From Paramarasmius palmivorus (lineage: Eukaryota; Basidiomycota; Agaricomycetes; Agaricales; Marasmiaceae), in NCBI GenBank assembly GCA_037176845.1, contig JAYKXP010000084.1:62001-126000 (forward strand): 64,000 nucleotides of DNA, written 5' to 3'. The stretch's first letter is position 1, and each line of letters opens with the position of its first letter. The translations under genes and the position numbers were made by a program. The notes under the pieces are model-generated. The model was not told the DNA's origin. It made no database searches and saw only the letters and a program-made list of their open reading frames with translations. Positions 49,576-55,777 of the stretch are shown here, in pieces.

Positions 49576-50554
49576 CTAGAGACCTATGAGTAATAATCGG
49601 GATTCTATCCCATCGTCCTTCATCCTGATGGTTGCGTCGTACTCATTGACCAAGGCATGCTCCAATCCCCATTGATGAAGTTTCTCAAAGTTGCGGCAAG
49701 TATGAGCAATATCGCCTTGGAATTTGTTCTTCTGCTCTTCTTCTTCCCATTGCCATCTGTCGTAAAACATCAGTGCGAGGCGAAAGAGAACCCTAGGAAA
49801 GATACTACATACACAATGACGCTGGTATCACCCGCGCACATTAACGACTGTCGTAGCCAGTCAACACAATGGTCCATATGTGCGGCATTTTCGCCGACGT
49901 TCATGGCCATGTGAGTGTAGTAGTCGGAATGGAGCGTTTGCGAATCATGTTCTATGAGGGATAGTTAGAGGGAAGATTCATCGTAAGTAGGACATGAGCG
50001 CTAGAGACCAACCAGACAGTGTAGGTTGTGGAATACATCGAAGTTCCACAATGTAGTGCTCCTCGTCACCGGGAATTGGCAGTGTCTTGTTCGGTAGGAG
50101 AGCAGCCTGGGATTTTGGGATGCGTGAAATACCGACTGTAAACGAACCTGATCAGCAAAAGAAAGCTGGAGAGACGAGAGGGACCTACAGTTGTACAAAT
50201 TCTCCCAGTGGGCATCCAGCTCATCGGAAGGCGGGATGTGGAAGTTCTTGTCACCGCCAATGGCAAACTTGGTGACATGGTACTCGATTGCGTCCTGAGC
50301 GGGTGCTGCAACAGCTCAGTGACTATGTATCGTGATCTAGCGAAGAGCTTACAGTAAACGAGCGCTGGTGGTGGATACTTGTGCCCAGCTCGGTGACTGG
50401 CCCAGATCCAAAGCAACGCCAATGTTTCGACGATGACGACGAAATGAAGCAAGCGTCGAGAAAGCGATCTAGTCTGCTTTGGAGCAGGCTCTGCATATTC
50501 AGAGTCAGGATCGGGTGCGAGACGTTGATAGTTGGTCTTCCAGTTCTTGAACAT
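49576..50554 (-). CDS. UstYa-family (DUF3328) oxidase, copy 1, apparently frameshifted
   Basis: Type II membrane protein of the UstYa/DUF3328 family. Relatives UstYa/UstYb carry out oxidative cyclisation of ribosomal peptides in ustiloxin-type (dikaritin) pathways and depend on two HxxHC motifs. ATG 50554 gives a cytoplasmic tail, then one membrane segment (LLHFVVIVETLALLWIW). Later parts are IEYHVTKFAIGGDKNFHIP, the first HxxHC motif DVFHNLHCL, the second in AAHMDHCVDWLRQSLMC, and the end WEEEEQKNKFQGDIAHTCRN. Compared with copy 2, one base is extra at about 50041-50043 (just before DVFHNLHC) and one is missing near 49921-49927. Either it is a pseudogene or the sequence has errors. All conserved residues remain. 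Confidence 0.8.
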
Positions 50555-50625: not shown

Positions 50626-51453
50626 TCAGAGGAATAGTTCTATGAGCAAAATGGGGAAGGCCGCCTGTAAAGACAGTTTTACTAGTTGCGAAGTAAATGA
50701 TTGTTCCATCCTGCGCGGAAAGTCAAGGAGACGTGTACCTCTCCTATCAGAACCGGGAGAAAGTTCATTTCTTGGAGAGGTTGCTTGACTGTCCTTGACT
50801 GTTCGTACACCGACCCTGAGCTTCTGGCGTAGTTCTGCTTGTCCTGTCGCCATAATTTCGCGATGTTCGGTGCTGGCGTTCCGCAAATGAATTCGATCGT
50901 GTCAAAACAGCGTTGAACGTGGAACTCTGGGTCGGCGCGAATCATTCTGTTGTTGTGAGCTGTCGAACGCAGGGACGAGGCGAATAAAGGTGGAGCGATG
51001 TTCGTAGTTTGCGATGAGGCGTGACCAAGAGGTTTTCTGAGCAGAAGGTTGATGGTGCCTTCTAGTTAATCAGTCAGGAAGGTGTCATTCAATACCACTA
51101 TCAATCACGTACCATATCAGTTGCCTGGAAGAACAATTCAGTTCAAGTGCCTGCTGATGATGAAGGTAGGAATTATTGATGTGAAAACGTGAAAACATTG
51201 GGAAAACATACTGCCTTTGCAAAGAAAACGGGGTTAGCTTGAGCAAATACATCCTTTCTGAGGTTCAATCCGTTGAACAGGAACCAAGTAACAAGGGACT
51301 ATGAGAATTTTGGGGGTCGAGATTCAGCACAGAGTCAGCGAGAGCATGCACCAGAGGAATACTAGGTGGTTGGAGGTCAAGGCGGTTTAGCGGAATACCT
51401 CGGCCCGTTCCACTCTGTGTACAGTTCTCACGCTCCTTCTCCTCTGCGGCCAT
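50626..51453 (-). pseudogene. Unrecognised gene between the two UstYa genes, frames broken
   Basis: Coding-like sequence that I cannot assign. From ATG 51453 it reads MAAEEKERENCTQSGTGRGI and on to LNLDPQNSHSP, then continues in another frame as LVTWFLFNGLNLRKDVFAQA with NPVFFAKA. One more C in the CCC run near 51294-51297 would join the two. After probable introns (donor near 51211, donor GTACGT near 51112), text such as SRLIANYEHRSTFIRLVPAF and FHVQRCFDTIEFICGTPAPN appears in different frames. No catalytic motif is evident. It lies between two candidate peptide-modifying genes on the same strand, so a pathway role is possible. It could be an intact gene disguised by indels. Confidence 0.4.
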
Positions 51454-51609
51454 GGCCAGCGAAAAAAATTTGTAGCTATCTCAGTCTGTGTCCTCGATGA
51501 CAAACCAACAACGATACCCTAGTTCAACACTTGAAAAGAGACAGAGAAATGTCATCTTTGGATCACCGAAGCTGGAATAATTCACAAATTTTCTGAATTC
51601 TACGGTACT

Positions 51610-52628
51610 TTACAAGTCGTTCGCATGGAGTACAGGGATAACGATATCATCTTTCAGGTGCACATTAGGATTGAATTGGCCTGGTAGCTGGCGCTCTTTT
51701 GCCCAGTCTTGGATTTTTTCAAAGTTTCGGCAGGTATGTGCGATGTCACCTTTCACGATAGAGCTGTTGATCCAATCTTCCCATTGCCAGCTGTTTCTAA
51801 ACGGTCAGAAAGCTACCTAGAACGAAGAAATTATCTTTCACGTACACAATAACACTCGTATCGGCATGGCACATAATCGACTGTCGGATCCAGTCGATAC
51901 AATGACTAACGTGCTGAGCGGATTTTTCATTGGCCGTGGTATTCCATTCGGGATAGTAGGCAGGATCCAAAGCCTTTCGAACCATATTCTACGAAAGCGC
52001 GATAAGCGGAAGGAAACCAAGGCCGAACTCGAAAAGGAAACCGACCAAGCAGTGCAAATTGTGGAAGACATCGAGCTCTGCAATGTAGTACTCTTCGTCG
52101 CCAGGGATCGGCTGGGTCTTGTTGGGGAGCCTGGCAGCCTGATTCTTGGTGATTCGGGATATTCCGACTTGTGTTTGGGTGAGCTCCGATTCTCATTTAG
52201 TCGCAAGGGCGTTACTTACAACCGTATAGCTCCTCCCAAGCATCGTCGAGTGCCGGAGAAGAAGGGATTTGGAACGGAGATAGGTCTCCAGGGAAGCCTA
52301 CGTGGAAAACCTTGATCTGAGGCTCCACTACGTCCAAGGCCGGTGCTACGAGGGATAGATTAGAGGCAAGAAAGTCACACGTCAGGATATACGTACAATA
52401 CAGGACACGAGAGCATACATCATCTGAGGGCACTTTCTTCACGACGAAGAACATGAGTCCCAGTACTAGCAGAAGTGACTGAACCACCACGACATAGACA
52501 AGACACCGGTAAGGTGGCGCGTATCTCTTCGCTGTAGCTATTTCGGCTGATTGCTGCTTCAGCTCTGCGGTATCACCCTCTTCGAGGGCTTCGTCGTCCA
52601 TGAGGGGGCGGTACTCTTCTTTGGCCAT
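51610..52628 (-). CDS. UstYa-family (DUF3328) oxidase, copy 2
   Basis: The intact member of the pair. ATG 52628 (MAKEEYRPLMDDEALEEGDT) is preferred over an upstream TTG. A single membrane segment lies near residues 42-63 (CLVYVVVVQSLLLVLGLMFF), so the catalytic part faces the secretory lumen. Downstream are KVFHVGFPGDLSPFQIPSSP, DDAWEELYG, VGISRITKNQAARLP, EEYYIAELDVFHNLHCLNMV with the first HxxHC, and AQHVSHCIDWIRQSIMC with the second, then WQWEDWINSSIVKGDIAHTC and VIPVLHANDL. UstYa proteins install C-O or C-C crosslinks on peptides. It starts 1.18 kb from the divergently transcribed repeat-precursor gene, which makes that product its likely substrate. Confidence 0.88.
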
Positions 52629-53732
52629 ATCGAGGAAGTTGGGAGGAAACAAAAATCCAGAACTGTCCTTGAAAATCCTCAGAGGATGTATTTGAGACTA
52701 TTTTGCTCTCTGAAAGGTACGCCAATACTTGGTTTGGAACCTCACAACTTACTGATGGCCTGATCGATGACAGCGGATCTATCAAGTGAATTTATGACAT
52801 TCTTCCTTATGACCGATTTTACCCTTCTCCGTCTTGTTCGTATTCAAGGACATGTTTTGACTTGGACAATGCGCAATGACGACTGGGCATGGTGTAGTTT
52901 TTGCATCAATTTTGTGACTAGGTCTCCGATACTGGTGCCTCTCATCGGAATGTTCTTCGGATGCCTCTAAACTCCGCTGCAGCGTACCTTCGAGGCGTGA
53001 TTGAGGCAGATACAACCATAGTTTCTTTTGGGAGTCAGGGAATGAATTTCCGATACTTCCGATCTTGCTGACTATCAGAAGGCCTCGTGCTTTGTGGCAG
53101 GCAATCGCAAGAGCGTGATAGATGGGATTTATTGTGAGTCAATTCTAAAAGCGGTCCGCCGGATTATTTCTCGGTATATTGCTGATACTTGTCTTTGCAT
53201 AGCCGATCATTCAAGCTTCCCGAAGTCGAAACTTACTAGGGTAGTGGTTCAAAAAAGTCGCGCTCACAGCTCACGCTGTCAGTAACGCGCGCTGCATAGA
53301 TCGTACAATGGGTCGTTCTTCTAGCCAAAGGCAATGTCCGAACTCAAGCCTACTCAAGCTTTTAGCAGACGTGCTGAGGCTGTTTTCCTATTCGCAAAGT
53401 ATAACTTCGTGATCGTACCTCAACTACTGACCAAAAATGATTTTGTCATCCAGGGGGCTCGAAGCCACGCTTGAAGATATCCTTCCTTCCGATCAGGTAA
53501 GTCTAATGTTCCTCCCCCGTACAAGGCAAACATAGCTGATTCCCGGTTGTCATGGATGATAGAAAATGATTGTACCTATACACTCGAAACCGCATGCTTC
53601 TCTTTTTCGTGGTCACGACTGGCGTGAGCTGACGCGTAGATGATGAACGCTATCCCCGGAGAGGTTTCAATAACTTTGAACTTGAACGAGGACGAAGTAG
53701 TGAACCTGGTGTGTACAGTCATCTTGCGATCC
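52629..53732. other. Divergent intergenic region, UstYa copy 2 / peptide precursor
   Basis: About 1.1 kb with no recognisable gene; short frames on both strands look random. It should contain the promoters of both the oxidase and the precursor, and is the place to look for shared regulator sites. Confidence 0.5.
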
Positions 53733-53739
53733 TATAAAA
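53733..53739 (+). promoter_or_regulatory. Putative TATA box of the precursor gene
   Basis: TATAAAA 70-76 bp upstream of the precursor ATG. Sequence between it and the ATG is pyrimidine-rich near 53778-53800, as in strongly expressed fungal genes. Confidence 0.6.
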
Positions 53740-53808
53740 TGGCTCACATTCCCATCAGAGAAGTCAGAGTCACTCGATTCTTTTCTCTTTCCAGTCTTCT
53801 CGTTCAAG

Positions 53809-55777
53809 ATGTTCAACCTCAAGTTCTTCGCATTGTTCAGCCTTGTTTTGGCTGCAGTTGTGTCTGCTGCACCAGCCGTCGTCGTACGTGGCAACATGGC
53901 ACGTCATCCTATACGTCGTGACTAACGATACTTATAGGACTCCGACAACAAAGACTGGCACATTGGTAGCCAAGAGGCCGAAAGGCGCGCTCTCGTGGTA
54001 CGTCGGTGCCTCCGACGATCGTCCATTGCTCACGACTCCTCAGGATCCGGATAACAATAGCTGGCACATCGGGGGACGTACTGTTGCCACCGCCGCTGCT
54101 GTGTGTACTTTCGTCTGCTTCACCCTTCATCTTCATATCTAACATTTTCTAGGTTGATGCCGGTAACGATCATTGGACTATTAAACAACAGAGAAGGGCC
54201 GTTGCTACTGCCGCTGTATGTCCTTATCTTATGCTCGTCGCATCTCTCTTTCACTAATGATCCTCTCGCAGGTTGATGCCAACAATGACCACTGGACCAT
54301 TCAGCAGCAGAGGAGGGCTGTTGCGACTGGTGCTGCTGCTGTAAGCACTTGATTTTTCGTGGATCCCAGCCGTCTGACTGAAATACTTTTACCGCAACAG
54401 GTCGACCCTAACAACGACCACTGGACCATAGGAAAGGCGGTCCCGACAGCCGTAAGCTATTGCAGTAATTTTTCCCCTTATGCTCTGTTGACCGTCCGTC
54501 AAAGGCGTATGTTGATTCCAGCAACTCAAAGTGGACTATCAAGCAAGAAGAGGCAAGAGCCGTGGAAACTGGTGCTGTAAGTCAGAGGTTTCTGTTGAAT
54601 CGAACCTTTCTTGATCATACGTCCGATAGGTCGATGCAGGCAACACCAATTGGACCATCAAGCAGCAACGGAGAGCCGCTGAAACTACCGCCGCTGTGAG
54701 CCATTACCAACCTTCACGTGTATGAGTCGATCTCATACGTATTTCTAGGTTGACGCTAACAACAATAGCTGGACAATTAAAGAGCAGCGACGAGCGGTTC
54801 CAACTGCAGCTGCTGAATCAGTCGATGCTGACAACGACGGTTGGTCAATCGGAAAGCAAAATAAGCGCGCCCTCGTGGTAAATTTCTATCATGCGATAAT
54901 CAAACATACATGTTCTGATATAATTACAGGATCCCAATAACAACACCTGGACTATACACCGCCGTGCAGCCCCTACTGCCGCTGCTGTAGGATATGAATT
55001 GTCGATCTTATCTGTTTCTAATCGTGTTCCTAGGCTGTGGATCCCAACAACGATCACTGGACTATTGGTGGCCGAGCTGCTCCTACTGCCGCAGTAAGCC
55101 TCTTTTTGCACTAGAAGAAACACGCTCATGACCACTCCAGGCCGAATCGGTGGATGCTGATAATGACGGGTGGTCAATCGGAAAGCAGAATAAACGTGAC
55201 GTAGTTGACGCCGATAACAAGAGCTGGACCATTCACCAAGAGGCCGCCCGTGCCGAAGCAACAGCCGCTGTAAGAACCCTGTTACCTTTCACGCTGCAAA
55301 AGTGTTCATCGAAATCTCCAGGCTGAAGTTGATGCCAACAACGATAATTGGTCCATTGGAAAGCAGAACAAGCGCGCAGAGGTTGATGCCGACAACACGA
55401 GCTGGACCATTCACCGAGCCCGCGCTTTGCCGACTGCTGTGGTATGTCGCGCTCCCATCTCATGTTGAACTTGTGTGATCTGAACGTTTTCAGGTCGATG
55501 CTAATAATGACAAATGGGTCATCGGCAACAAGCGTGCAGTCGACTCCGATAATACTAACTGGACTATTAAACAAGAAGCTGCTCGTGCTCTCCCTACTGT
55601 GGCCGTAAGATATCCTTTCTTACTTGCAGTATGTGACTAATAGAGGGCCAGGTTGATGCTAACAACGACGGTTGGTCTATTGGTGGTGGAAAGAACCCTG
55701 CCAAAGTGGAGCGTGCCACTGTGGGTCACCTTCATTCGTTGATATCTGAACTTGGACCCTGATGTCTTTTATAGTAA
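53809..55777 (+). CDS. Secreted multi-repeat peptide precursor (dikaritin/KEP-like RiPP precursor)
   Basis: Fifteen exons, 396 residues. Exon 1 (MFNLKFFALFSLVLAAVVSA) is a signal peptide. Exons 2-15 (53938-53997, 54044-54100, 54153-54215, 54272-54340, 54401-54451, 54505-54576, 54630-54695, 54749-54877, 54930-54986, 55034-55093, 55141-55269, 55322-55441, 55494-55604, 55652-55720) carry 18 nonapeptides D-x-x-N-x-x-W-[T/S/H/V]-I, for example VDANNDHWTI and VDADNDGWSI. Most are followed by KQQRR, GKQNKR, HRR or similar, and preceded by AVATAA- or APTAAA-type spacers. Dibasic sites fit Kex2; the X-Ala/X-Pro spacers fit a Ste13-type dipeptidase. All exons are multiples of three. The last exon splices to TAA at 55775; if unspliced it ends at TGA 55760. 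UstYa oxidases lie alongside. No Cys occurs, and only one Tyr (in exon 7). The product is inferred, not known. Confidence 0.85.
53938..55720 (+). repeat. Intragenic repeat array: 18 core-peptide units
   Basis: Units in order: DSDNKDWHI, DPDNNSWHI, DAGNDHWTI, DANNDHWTI, DPNNDHWTI, DSSNSKWTI, DAGNTNWTI, DANNNSWTI, DADNDGWSI, DPNNNTWTI, DPNNDHWTI, DADNDGWSI, DADNKSWTI, DANNDNWSI, DADNTSWTI, DANNDKWVI, DSDNTNWTI, DANNDGWSI. Positions 1 (Asp), 4 (Asn), 7 (Trp) and 9 (Ile) are invariant. Ten exons hold one unit each and four (9, 12, 13, 14) hold two. Confidence 0.92.

Follow-up and report, generated by a model that had tools for sequence, protein, structure and literature searches.

A candidate tryptophan-repeat peptide precursor encoded beside UstYa homologues in the mushroom Paramarasmius palmivorus

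Paramarasmius palmivorus (Marasmiaceae) has been listed among the causes of cacao thread blight. In a 64,000-nucleotide stretch of its contig JAYKXP010000084.1 (positions 62,001 to 126,000, referred to here as the window), we describe a gene at 53809-55777 of the + strand that encodes a predicted secreted protein with 18 copies of the unit V-D-x-x-N-x-x-W-x-I. Two matches to the UstYa family (DUF3328, PF11807), with 88.7 and 84.7 bits, lie upstream of it within 4 kb, on the - strand and in divergent orientation. The best reading of these sequences is that the locus is a dikaritin-like system for ribosomally synthesised and post-translationally modified peptides (RiPPs), with Trp in place of Tyr, a dikaritin being defined in PMC10512285 as a Kex2-processed repeat protein (KEP) cyclised by UstYa. 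On gene anatomy the locus belongs with the dikaritins, cyclisation of its cores by UstYa being putative. It is likely, on this comparative evidence, that a UstYa enzyme modifies the V-D-x-x-N-x-x-W-x-I cores.

The precursor gene and its repeat units

The window has 18 copies of D..N..W.I on its + strand (starts 53938-55655, last end 55681) and none on its - strand, and the motif never arose on the + strand in 500 single-base shuffles of 53809-55777. Starting at ATG 53809, a splice model with 15 GT-AG introns of 46-60 nt, each junction in phase 0, brings all units into one frame and yields a secreted repeat protein of 396 residues, which bears out the preliminary description of 18 units behind a signal peptide. 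The 15 exons given there stand for the amino-acid-coding part. The 3' end has two options, either a 16th exon at 55775-55777 that holds the stop codon only, or an unspliced last intron leading to TGA 55762 and adding 13 residues. Ten of the 14 unit-bearing exons carry one unit and four carry two. The splice search rewarded the motif, and the exon joins therefore lean on D..N..W.I; independently predicted Mycena proteins resemble the model in N-terminus and repeats. The features are as follows.

53809..55777, +, precursor gene (396 aa) with 15 coding exons, perhaps a further exon that holds just the stop, and introns of phase 0 throughout
53809..53883, +, exon 1, signal peptide MFNLKFFALFSLVLAAVVSAAPA, judged by eye, with a similar N-terminus in relatives
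53938..53964, +, unit 1, DSDNKDWHI
54044..54070, +, unit 2, DPDNNSWHI
54156..54182, +, unit 3, DAGNDHWTI
54275..54301, +, unit 4, DANNDHWTI
54404..54430, +, unit 5, DPNNDHWTI
54514..54540, +, unit 6, DSSNSKWTI
54633..54659, +, unit 7, DAGNTNWTI
54752..54778, +, unit 8, DANNNSWTI
54824..54850, +, unit 9, DADNDGWSI
54930..54956, +, unit 10, DPNNNTWTI
55040..55066, +, unit 11, DPNNDHWTI
55153..55179, +, unit 12, DADNDGWSI
55207..55233, +, unit 13, DADNKSWTI
55331..55357, +, unit 14, DANNDNWSI
55385..55411, +, unit 15, DADNTSWTI
55497..55523, +, unit 16, DANNDKWVI
55542..55568, +, unit 17, DSDNTNWTI
55655..55681, +, unit 18, DANNDGWSI

Asp1, Asn4, Trp7 and Ile9 had been described as the invariant residues of a nonapeptide. 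Their invariance holds (18/18 each), but the preceding Val is equally constant (18/18), and the unit is thus a decapeptide. Trp is the only conserved aromatic residue of the cores, none of which contains Tyr, Phe or Cys; W-x-I is present in all 18 and is followed by G in nine. The codons for D, N and I are mixed across the units. At the D, N, W and I positions the proportion of synonymous differences (pS) is ~1, i.e. saturated, and that of nonsynonymous differences (pN) is 0, compared with a pS of 0.80 and a pN of 0.42 at the other five positions. The repeats are the result of an old duplication under strong purifying selection and not of a recent expansion. A calcium-loop reading (DxDNDG-like) was weighed by eye and rejected, V, D, N, W and I being the only fixed residues, as was N-glycosylation as the cause of the invariant Asn4, a sequon being present in only 5 of the 18 cores.

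Among the 17 linkers between units, ten are dibasic, six have a single Arg only and one has no Arg and a single Lys. The ten KR/RR sites of the preliminary description were recovered; the remaining sites, given there as single Arg, include the Lys linker. The C-terminal tail has a single Arg, so that Arg is found in 16/17 linkers and in the tail. The basic residue often opens a flank of the form [RK]-[AST]-x-[PAE]-[TS], seen 12 times in the precursor (once with Lys) and absent from the preliminary description. With 18 units, 10/17 dibasic linkers and a signal peptide judged by eye and from relatives, the protein has the layout by which KEPs are recognised (a signal peptide and at least three repeats separated by KR, RR or KK). 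The register of ascomycete alpha-pheromones, in which X-A or X-P follows the Kex2 site for STE13 trimming, was rejected, such a dipeptide opening after 2 of the 10 dibasic sites only.

Rfam gave no match in the window, and the only Pfam signal for the precursor at E ≤1 was a CCL2-like lectin (E 0.49, under its cut-off). Neither the single-sequence nor the profile database search (~8000 candidates scored in each) recovered a precursor protein from P. palmivorus, whereas a search for UstYa did recover the UstYa proteins of the same assembly. The gene thus appears to be absent from the P. palmivorus annotation or modelled very differently there.

UstYa genes, companion loci and relatives in Mycena

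Beside the precursor, one UstYa gene has an intact model and the other a broken frame.

51610..52628, -, UstYa-1, 269 aa from 5 exons, with a hydrophobic helix at the N-terminus and the motifs HNLHC and HVSHC
49808..50554, extending further 3', -, UstYa-2, UstYa homologue with the frame broken just before the first HxxHC (a pseudogene or a sequencing error)
52629..53808, no strand, ~1.2 kb separating the UstYa-1 start codon from that of the precursor, possibly a promoter region shared by both

UstYa-1 is 99% identical to VNI00_014645 (P0006) of P. palmivorus. All 48 UstYa homologues that were aligned, chosen from the best 120 of 197, keep both HxxHC motifs. The AlphaFold model of P0006 (mean pLDDT, the predicted local distance difference test, 79) places these motifs in helices well past an N-terminal helix (40-63), which we take from the model as a putative membrane anchor. 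Foldseek with this model gave no match at E ≤0.001, and a sequence search of the PDB with the UstYa profile gave none.

Across the genome, 36 UstYa matches fall into 17 places when merged at 5 kb, and these matches with their 5-kb surroundings make up ~0.3% of the genome. Besides the window, six of these loci have Trp-repeat readings on the opposite strand and divergent from UstYa; they were read from six-frame translations, i.e. without predicted exons.

C26:484500-494400, units 490090-491414, +, 16 units, e.g. VDLDNKQWGLK, with two UstYa genes in divergent orientation, few dibasic sites
C1:569000-578900, units 570385-571761, -, 14 almost identical units, e.g. KRAFPVDDANIGWKDEPVV, one every ~105 nt, with UstYa genes in divergent orientation
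C21, ~8 units around DNKNIWIKRE, divergent from UstYa
C99 near 139 kb, four units, e.g. VDVDAANMNQDWWKRE (NQDWWKRE), divergent from UstYa
C31 and C85, 7 units each around IFAKTAWED, divergent from UstYa

At C1 the 14 units read VDDANIGWKDEP[VT]V, the second Asp being once Glu; a signal-peptide-like start lies upstream, and 13 units follow KR or RR (by eye, in six-frame context). C31 and C85 are 99% identical where compared, which suggests that the locus was duplicated or that the assembly contains two haplotypes. D-x-x-N-x-x-W cores are found at the precursor contig (C84), C26 and C1, and not at C21, C99 and C31. Among the best 120 of 197 matches, the UstYa proteins of this genome nearest to UstYa-1 are those of C26 (66%, P0009) and C1 (64%, P0010). 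Both loci carry D-x-x-N-x-x-W cores, as would be expected if enzyme and core co-evolved. A genome-wide pattern search gave, among the matches listed, 72 hits in the forward and 53 in the reverse direction, 18 of which belong to the window gene, versus 27 and 22 for a reversed control. Kexin-type P-domain matches in the genome number two.

Relatives of the precursor were found by a single-sequence search (5 proteins) and a profile search (23, including the profile's own four database members). All 19 of the 23 that carry a species name are from Mycena; the other four carry none. We counted units mainly in P0001-P0004 and P0127 (four Mycena proteins and P0003, which has no species name), because several M. 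olivaceomarginata models appear misjoined, with kinase pieces and degenerate units. In the 40 distinct units of this set, N and W are kept in 40/40, D in 37/40 and I in 35/40; in 25 distinct units of six Mycena proteins (P0126, P0128-P0131 and P0005) the figures are N 25, W 24, D 23 and I 25. These counts lean high, the unit search pattern having tolerated few alternatives per position. Conservation of the repeats in relatives, on which the preliminary description had staked its claim beforehand, was thus found in Mycena proteins. In M. olivaceomarginata, 14 proteins (P0126, P0128-P0132, P0134-P0140 and P0142) have DxxNTSWxI-like units, some of them degenerate, and some of the 14 are fused to unrelated sequence, with a kinase domain in three; they are probably copies that have been dispersed or misannotated.

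In M. kentingensis the precursor MKEN_00537300 is three and four locus-tag steps from the UstYa genes MKEN_00537600 and MKEN_00537700, and each of the three genes is on a contig of 4011168 bases. We infer from the tags that they are close neighbours on one contig; two further UstYa of this species, among the best 120 of 197 matches listed, sit on another contig. P0019 (MKEN_00537700) scores 124 bits against UstYa-1 and 83 bits against UstYa-2, and P0098 (MKEN_00537600) 119 bits against UstYa-2 and 106 against UstYa-1, with a mean identity of 48% to UstYa-1 and 44% to UstYa-2. For both, the best P. palmivorus locus is C1. A pair of two UstYa types conserved between P. palmivorus and M. kentingensis is only a suggestion from these scores.

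Processing, modification and alternative explanations

In the mechanism that we propose, the signal peptide would take the repeat protein into the secretory pathway (endoplasmic reticulum and Golgi), and a kexin-type protease, probably together with a second protease acting at single Arg, would cut the basic linkers and release up to 18 variants of V-D-x-x-N-x-x-W-x-I. The neighbouring UstYa oxidase, tethered through its N-terminal helix to the membranes of that pathway, would oxidise the Trp of the cores. Trp7 would most likely be joined to the beta-carbon of Ile9, with Asp1 and Asn4 acting as recognition residues or as partners in a second crosslink. The Trp7-Ile9 bridge is proposed because W-x-I is invariant in the 18 units and because Tyr and Ile are bridged in ustiloxin (YAIG) and phomopsin (YVIP); as a specific link drawn by analogy it is tentative, and we incline somewhat against it. 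More broadly, the six distinct divergent precursor-UstYa sets of this genome may represent a Trp-centred class of UstYa RiPPs, in which an indole instead of a phenol is crosslinked (here Trp7-Ile9) without a tyrosinase, an idea that we find quite possible, if short of probable.

Several observations weigh against a UstYa-modified, Kex2-cut precursor. The case for modification is drawn from sequence. UstYa-2 has a broken reading frame. W-x-I is not found in every linked precursor, C1 having W-K-D and C99 W-W-K, so that either the bridge partner differs there or the Trp7-Ile9 proposal is wrong. Nine of the 17 UstYa places (C56, C99 near 6 kb, C199, two on C205, C5, C11, C103 and C49; C152 was left out) showed no repeat precursor in the stretches read, i.e. 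336.5-344 kb of C56, 5-10 kb of C99 and ~1.5 kb on each side elsewhere, short flanks that could hide precursors. The C56 stretch has one lone D..N..W.I, and most UstYa at these nine places are lower-scoring matches. Conversely, C74 (47500-57400) has two short genes at 51446-52806 (+) that begin like signal peptides and carry four D..N..W.[IV] units, of which three contain Cys, i.e. Trp units near the same motif, yet C74 has no UstYa match. According to PMC7329392, KEPs encoded beside UstYa show no enrichment in Trp (20.5% vs 24.5% otherwise). Finally, dibasic linkers are rare in the relatives, with 0/15, 1/5, 1/7 and 3/6 in P0001-P0004 (5/33 in total) and single Arg in the remainder. The Kex2 dibasic layout of the preliminary description is therefore not a general trait of the relatives, while its RiPP-precursor reading gains its strongest support from the adjoining UstYa genes, which it does not mention, and further support from the recurrence of the repeats in Mycena and the close locus tags in M. 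kentingensis. The flank [RK]-[AST]-x-[PAE]-[TS] is common to the relatives (13, 3, 4, 2 and 5 in P0001-P0004 and P0127). Given the rarity of dibasic linkers and this shared flank, cleavage of the precursor is probably directed by Arg together with a follower motif and not tied strictly to dibasic Kex2 sites.

The repeat protein might also be processed by kexin into linear, essentially unmodified signalling or defence peptides, as for alpha-pheromone-like KEPs, with UstYa acting elsewhere. The KEP peptides described from C. cinerea, L. edodes and Pleurotus are indeed linear and minimally modified, and several Agaricomycete ones have a C-terminal Trp (PMC9769878). This explanation does not account for UstYa genes that adjoin the precursor here, are near it by locus tag in M. 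kentingensis and are divergent from further Trp-repeat readings, nor does the scarcity of STE13-type starts noted above suit it; we consider it unlikely.

An uncut structural or adhesive repeat protein, secreted and using Trp and Asn for surface or carbohydrate binding, would agree with the mostly non-dibasic linkers of the relatives and with the sub-threshold lectin match. It leaves the UstYa linkage unexplained, the linkers vary in length and almost all contain Arg, and an AlphaFold model of P0003 has no fold past the signal helix (mean pLDDT 36, from an alignment of 5 sequences only), which is more in keeping with a precursor awaiting cleavage than with a structural protein. Such a role is very improbable. 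The least probable of the three is a decaying or silent cluster whose precursor is a relic without product. The broken UstYa-2 frame and the failure of two database searches to return a P. palmivorus precursor protein would agree with a relic, but V, D, N, W and I are kept in all 18 units with a pN of 0 at D, N, W and I, the GT-AG sites are in place and the UstYa-1 model is intact.

The locus and its companions offer a specific example from a mushroom in which UstYa genes can be recognised and which is open to mass spectrometry. If Trp is indeed modified, this would be a new class of UstYa substrate, useful for constrained Trp peptides, and a mushroom peptide family that gene prediction easily misses on account of its tiny exons would become searchable. 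The contrasting precursors within one genome (C84, C26 and C1 versus C21, C99 and C31) could reveal how UstYa recognises its substrates.

Neighbouring genes and comparison with known systems

The neighbours were scanned with Pfam in six frames of 38-53 kb and 55.7-64 kb of the window (E 0.01). Other matches were a NIF phosphatase, a thaumatin, a dienelactone hydrolase, an AA9 oxygenase and a MYND protein; the dienelactone-hydrolase-like gene is the one match that could be a tailoring enzyme. No tyrosinase or S41 peptidase was found in these regions, and none of the 16 tyrosinase (PF00264) matches in the genome is on C84 or on any other of the seven precursor contigs. At 48.25-49.22 kb (-) a coding-looking stretch has C2H2-finger-like residues by eye, without a Pfam match at E 0.01, and is a possible cluster regulator. 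Elsewhere, C4:584500-592500 carries an unrelated classical KEP at ~588200-588770 (+), with ~10 repeats RQDIPAEVAVKSDGNTITQYK that contain no Trp, and there is no UstYa match on C4.

UstYa homologues are required for cyclisation in ustiloxin, phomopsin and asperipin (PMC7329392, PMC6514808), and those of phomopsin are also reported to desaturate residues (PMC10512285). The ustiloxin and phomopsin precursors, as described, share with ours a signal peptide, core repeats between basic sites and an aromatic-x-Ile motif (YAIG, YVIP), and their clusters likewise have UstYa homologues close by (two for ustiloxin, five for phomopsin). They differ in that our precursor has Trp instead of Tyr (Trp-x-Ile in 18/18 cores, Tyr in 0/18), conserved Asp and Asn upstream, a contig without a tyrosinase match and a basidiomycete host. 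Asperipin-2a (AprA/AprY) is closer in gene content, being the product of a small cluster of four genes, no tyrosinase among them, with cyclisation proposed to be the work of one UstYa homologue, but its FYYTGY core carries Tyr ethers, while ours has Trp only (PMC6514808). Victorin also comes from a kexin-type repeat precursor and has a non-Tyr aromatic residue, Phe, bridged to Leu (PMC9233826); its core is another one and its producer an ascomycete. In the literature surveyed, we found no description of a Trp-aliphatic UstYa bridge made without tyrosinase.

Among basidiomycetes, the KEPs of C. cinerea, L. edodes and Pleurotus resemble ours as secreted repeats, several with Trp cores, and differ in having Trp at the C-terminus of short linear peptides (PMC9769878, whose main text mentions neither DUF3328 nor UstY). 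Pleurotus is reported to have 16 UstYa-like genes, six of them developmentally expressed (PMC8893723). Borosins and cycloamanides are processed in the cytoplasm by S9 oligopeptidases (PMC9769878), a route that the signal peptide and repeats seen here make less likely. The same pairing of genes as at our locus was reported by Umemura (2020), with DUF3328 genes beside 1758/7878 fungal KEPs and 103/1680 basidiomycete ones (PMC7329392; Mycena is absent from its main text). For the scarcity of UstYa-linked KEPs in Basidiomycota, two options were offered there, another cyclisation factor or hardly any cyclisation. The preliminary description had noted no known match for the core: six core strings indeed had no match in a text search of the literature, but the kind of system, a KEP encoded beside UstYa genes, is a known one, basidiomycetes included. 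Taken with the sequences described here, this points to the Trp-repeat V-D-x-x-N-x-x-W-x-I precursor as an uncharacterised variant of that kind.
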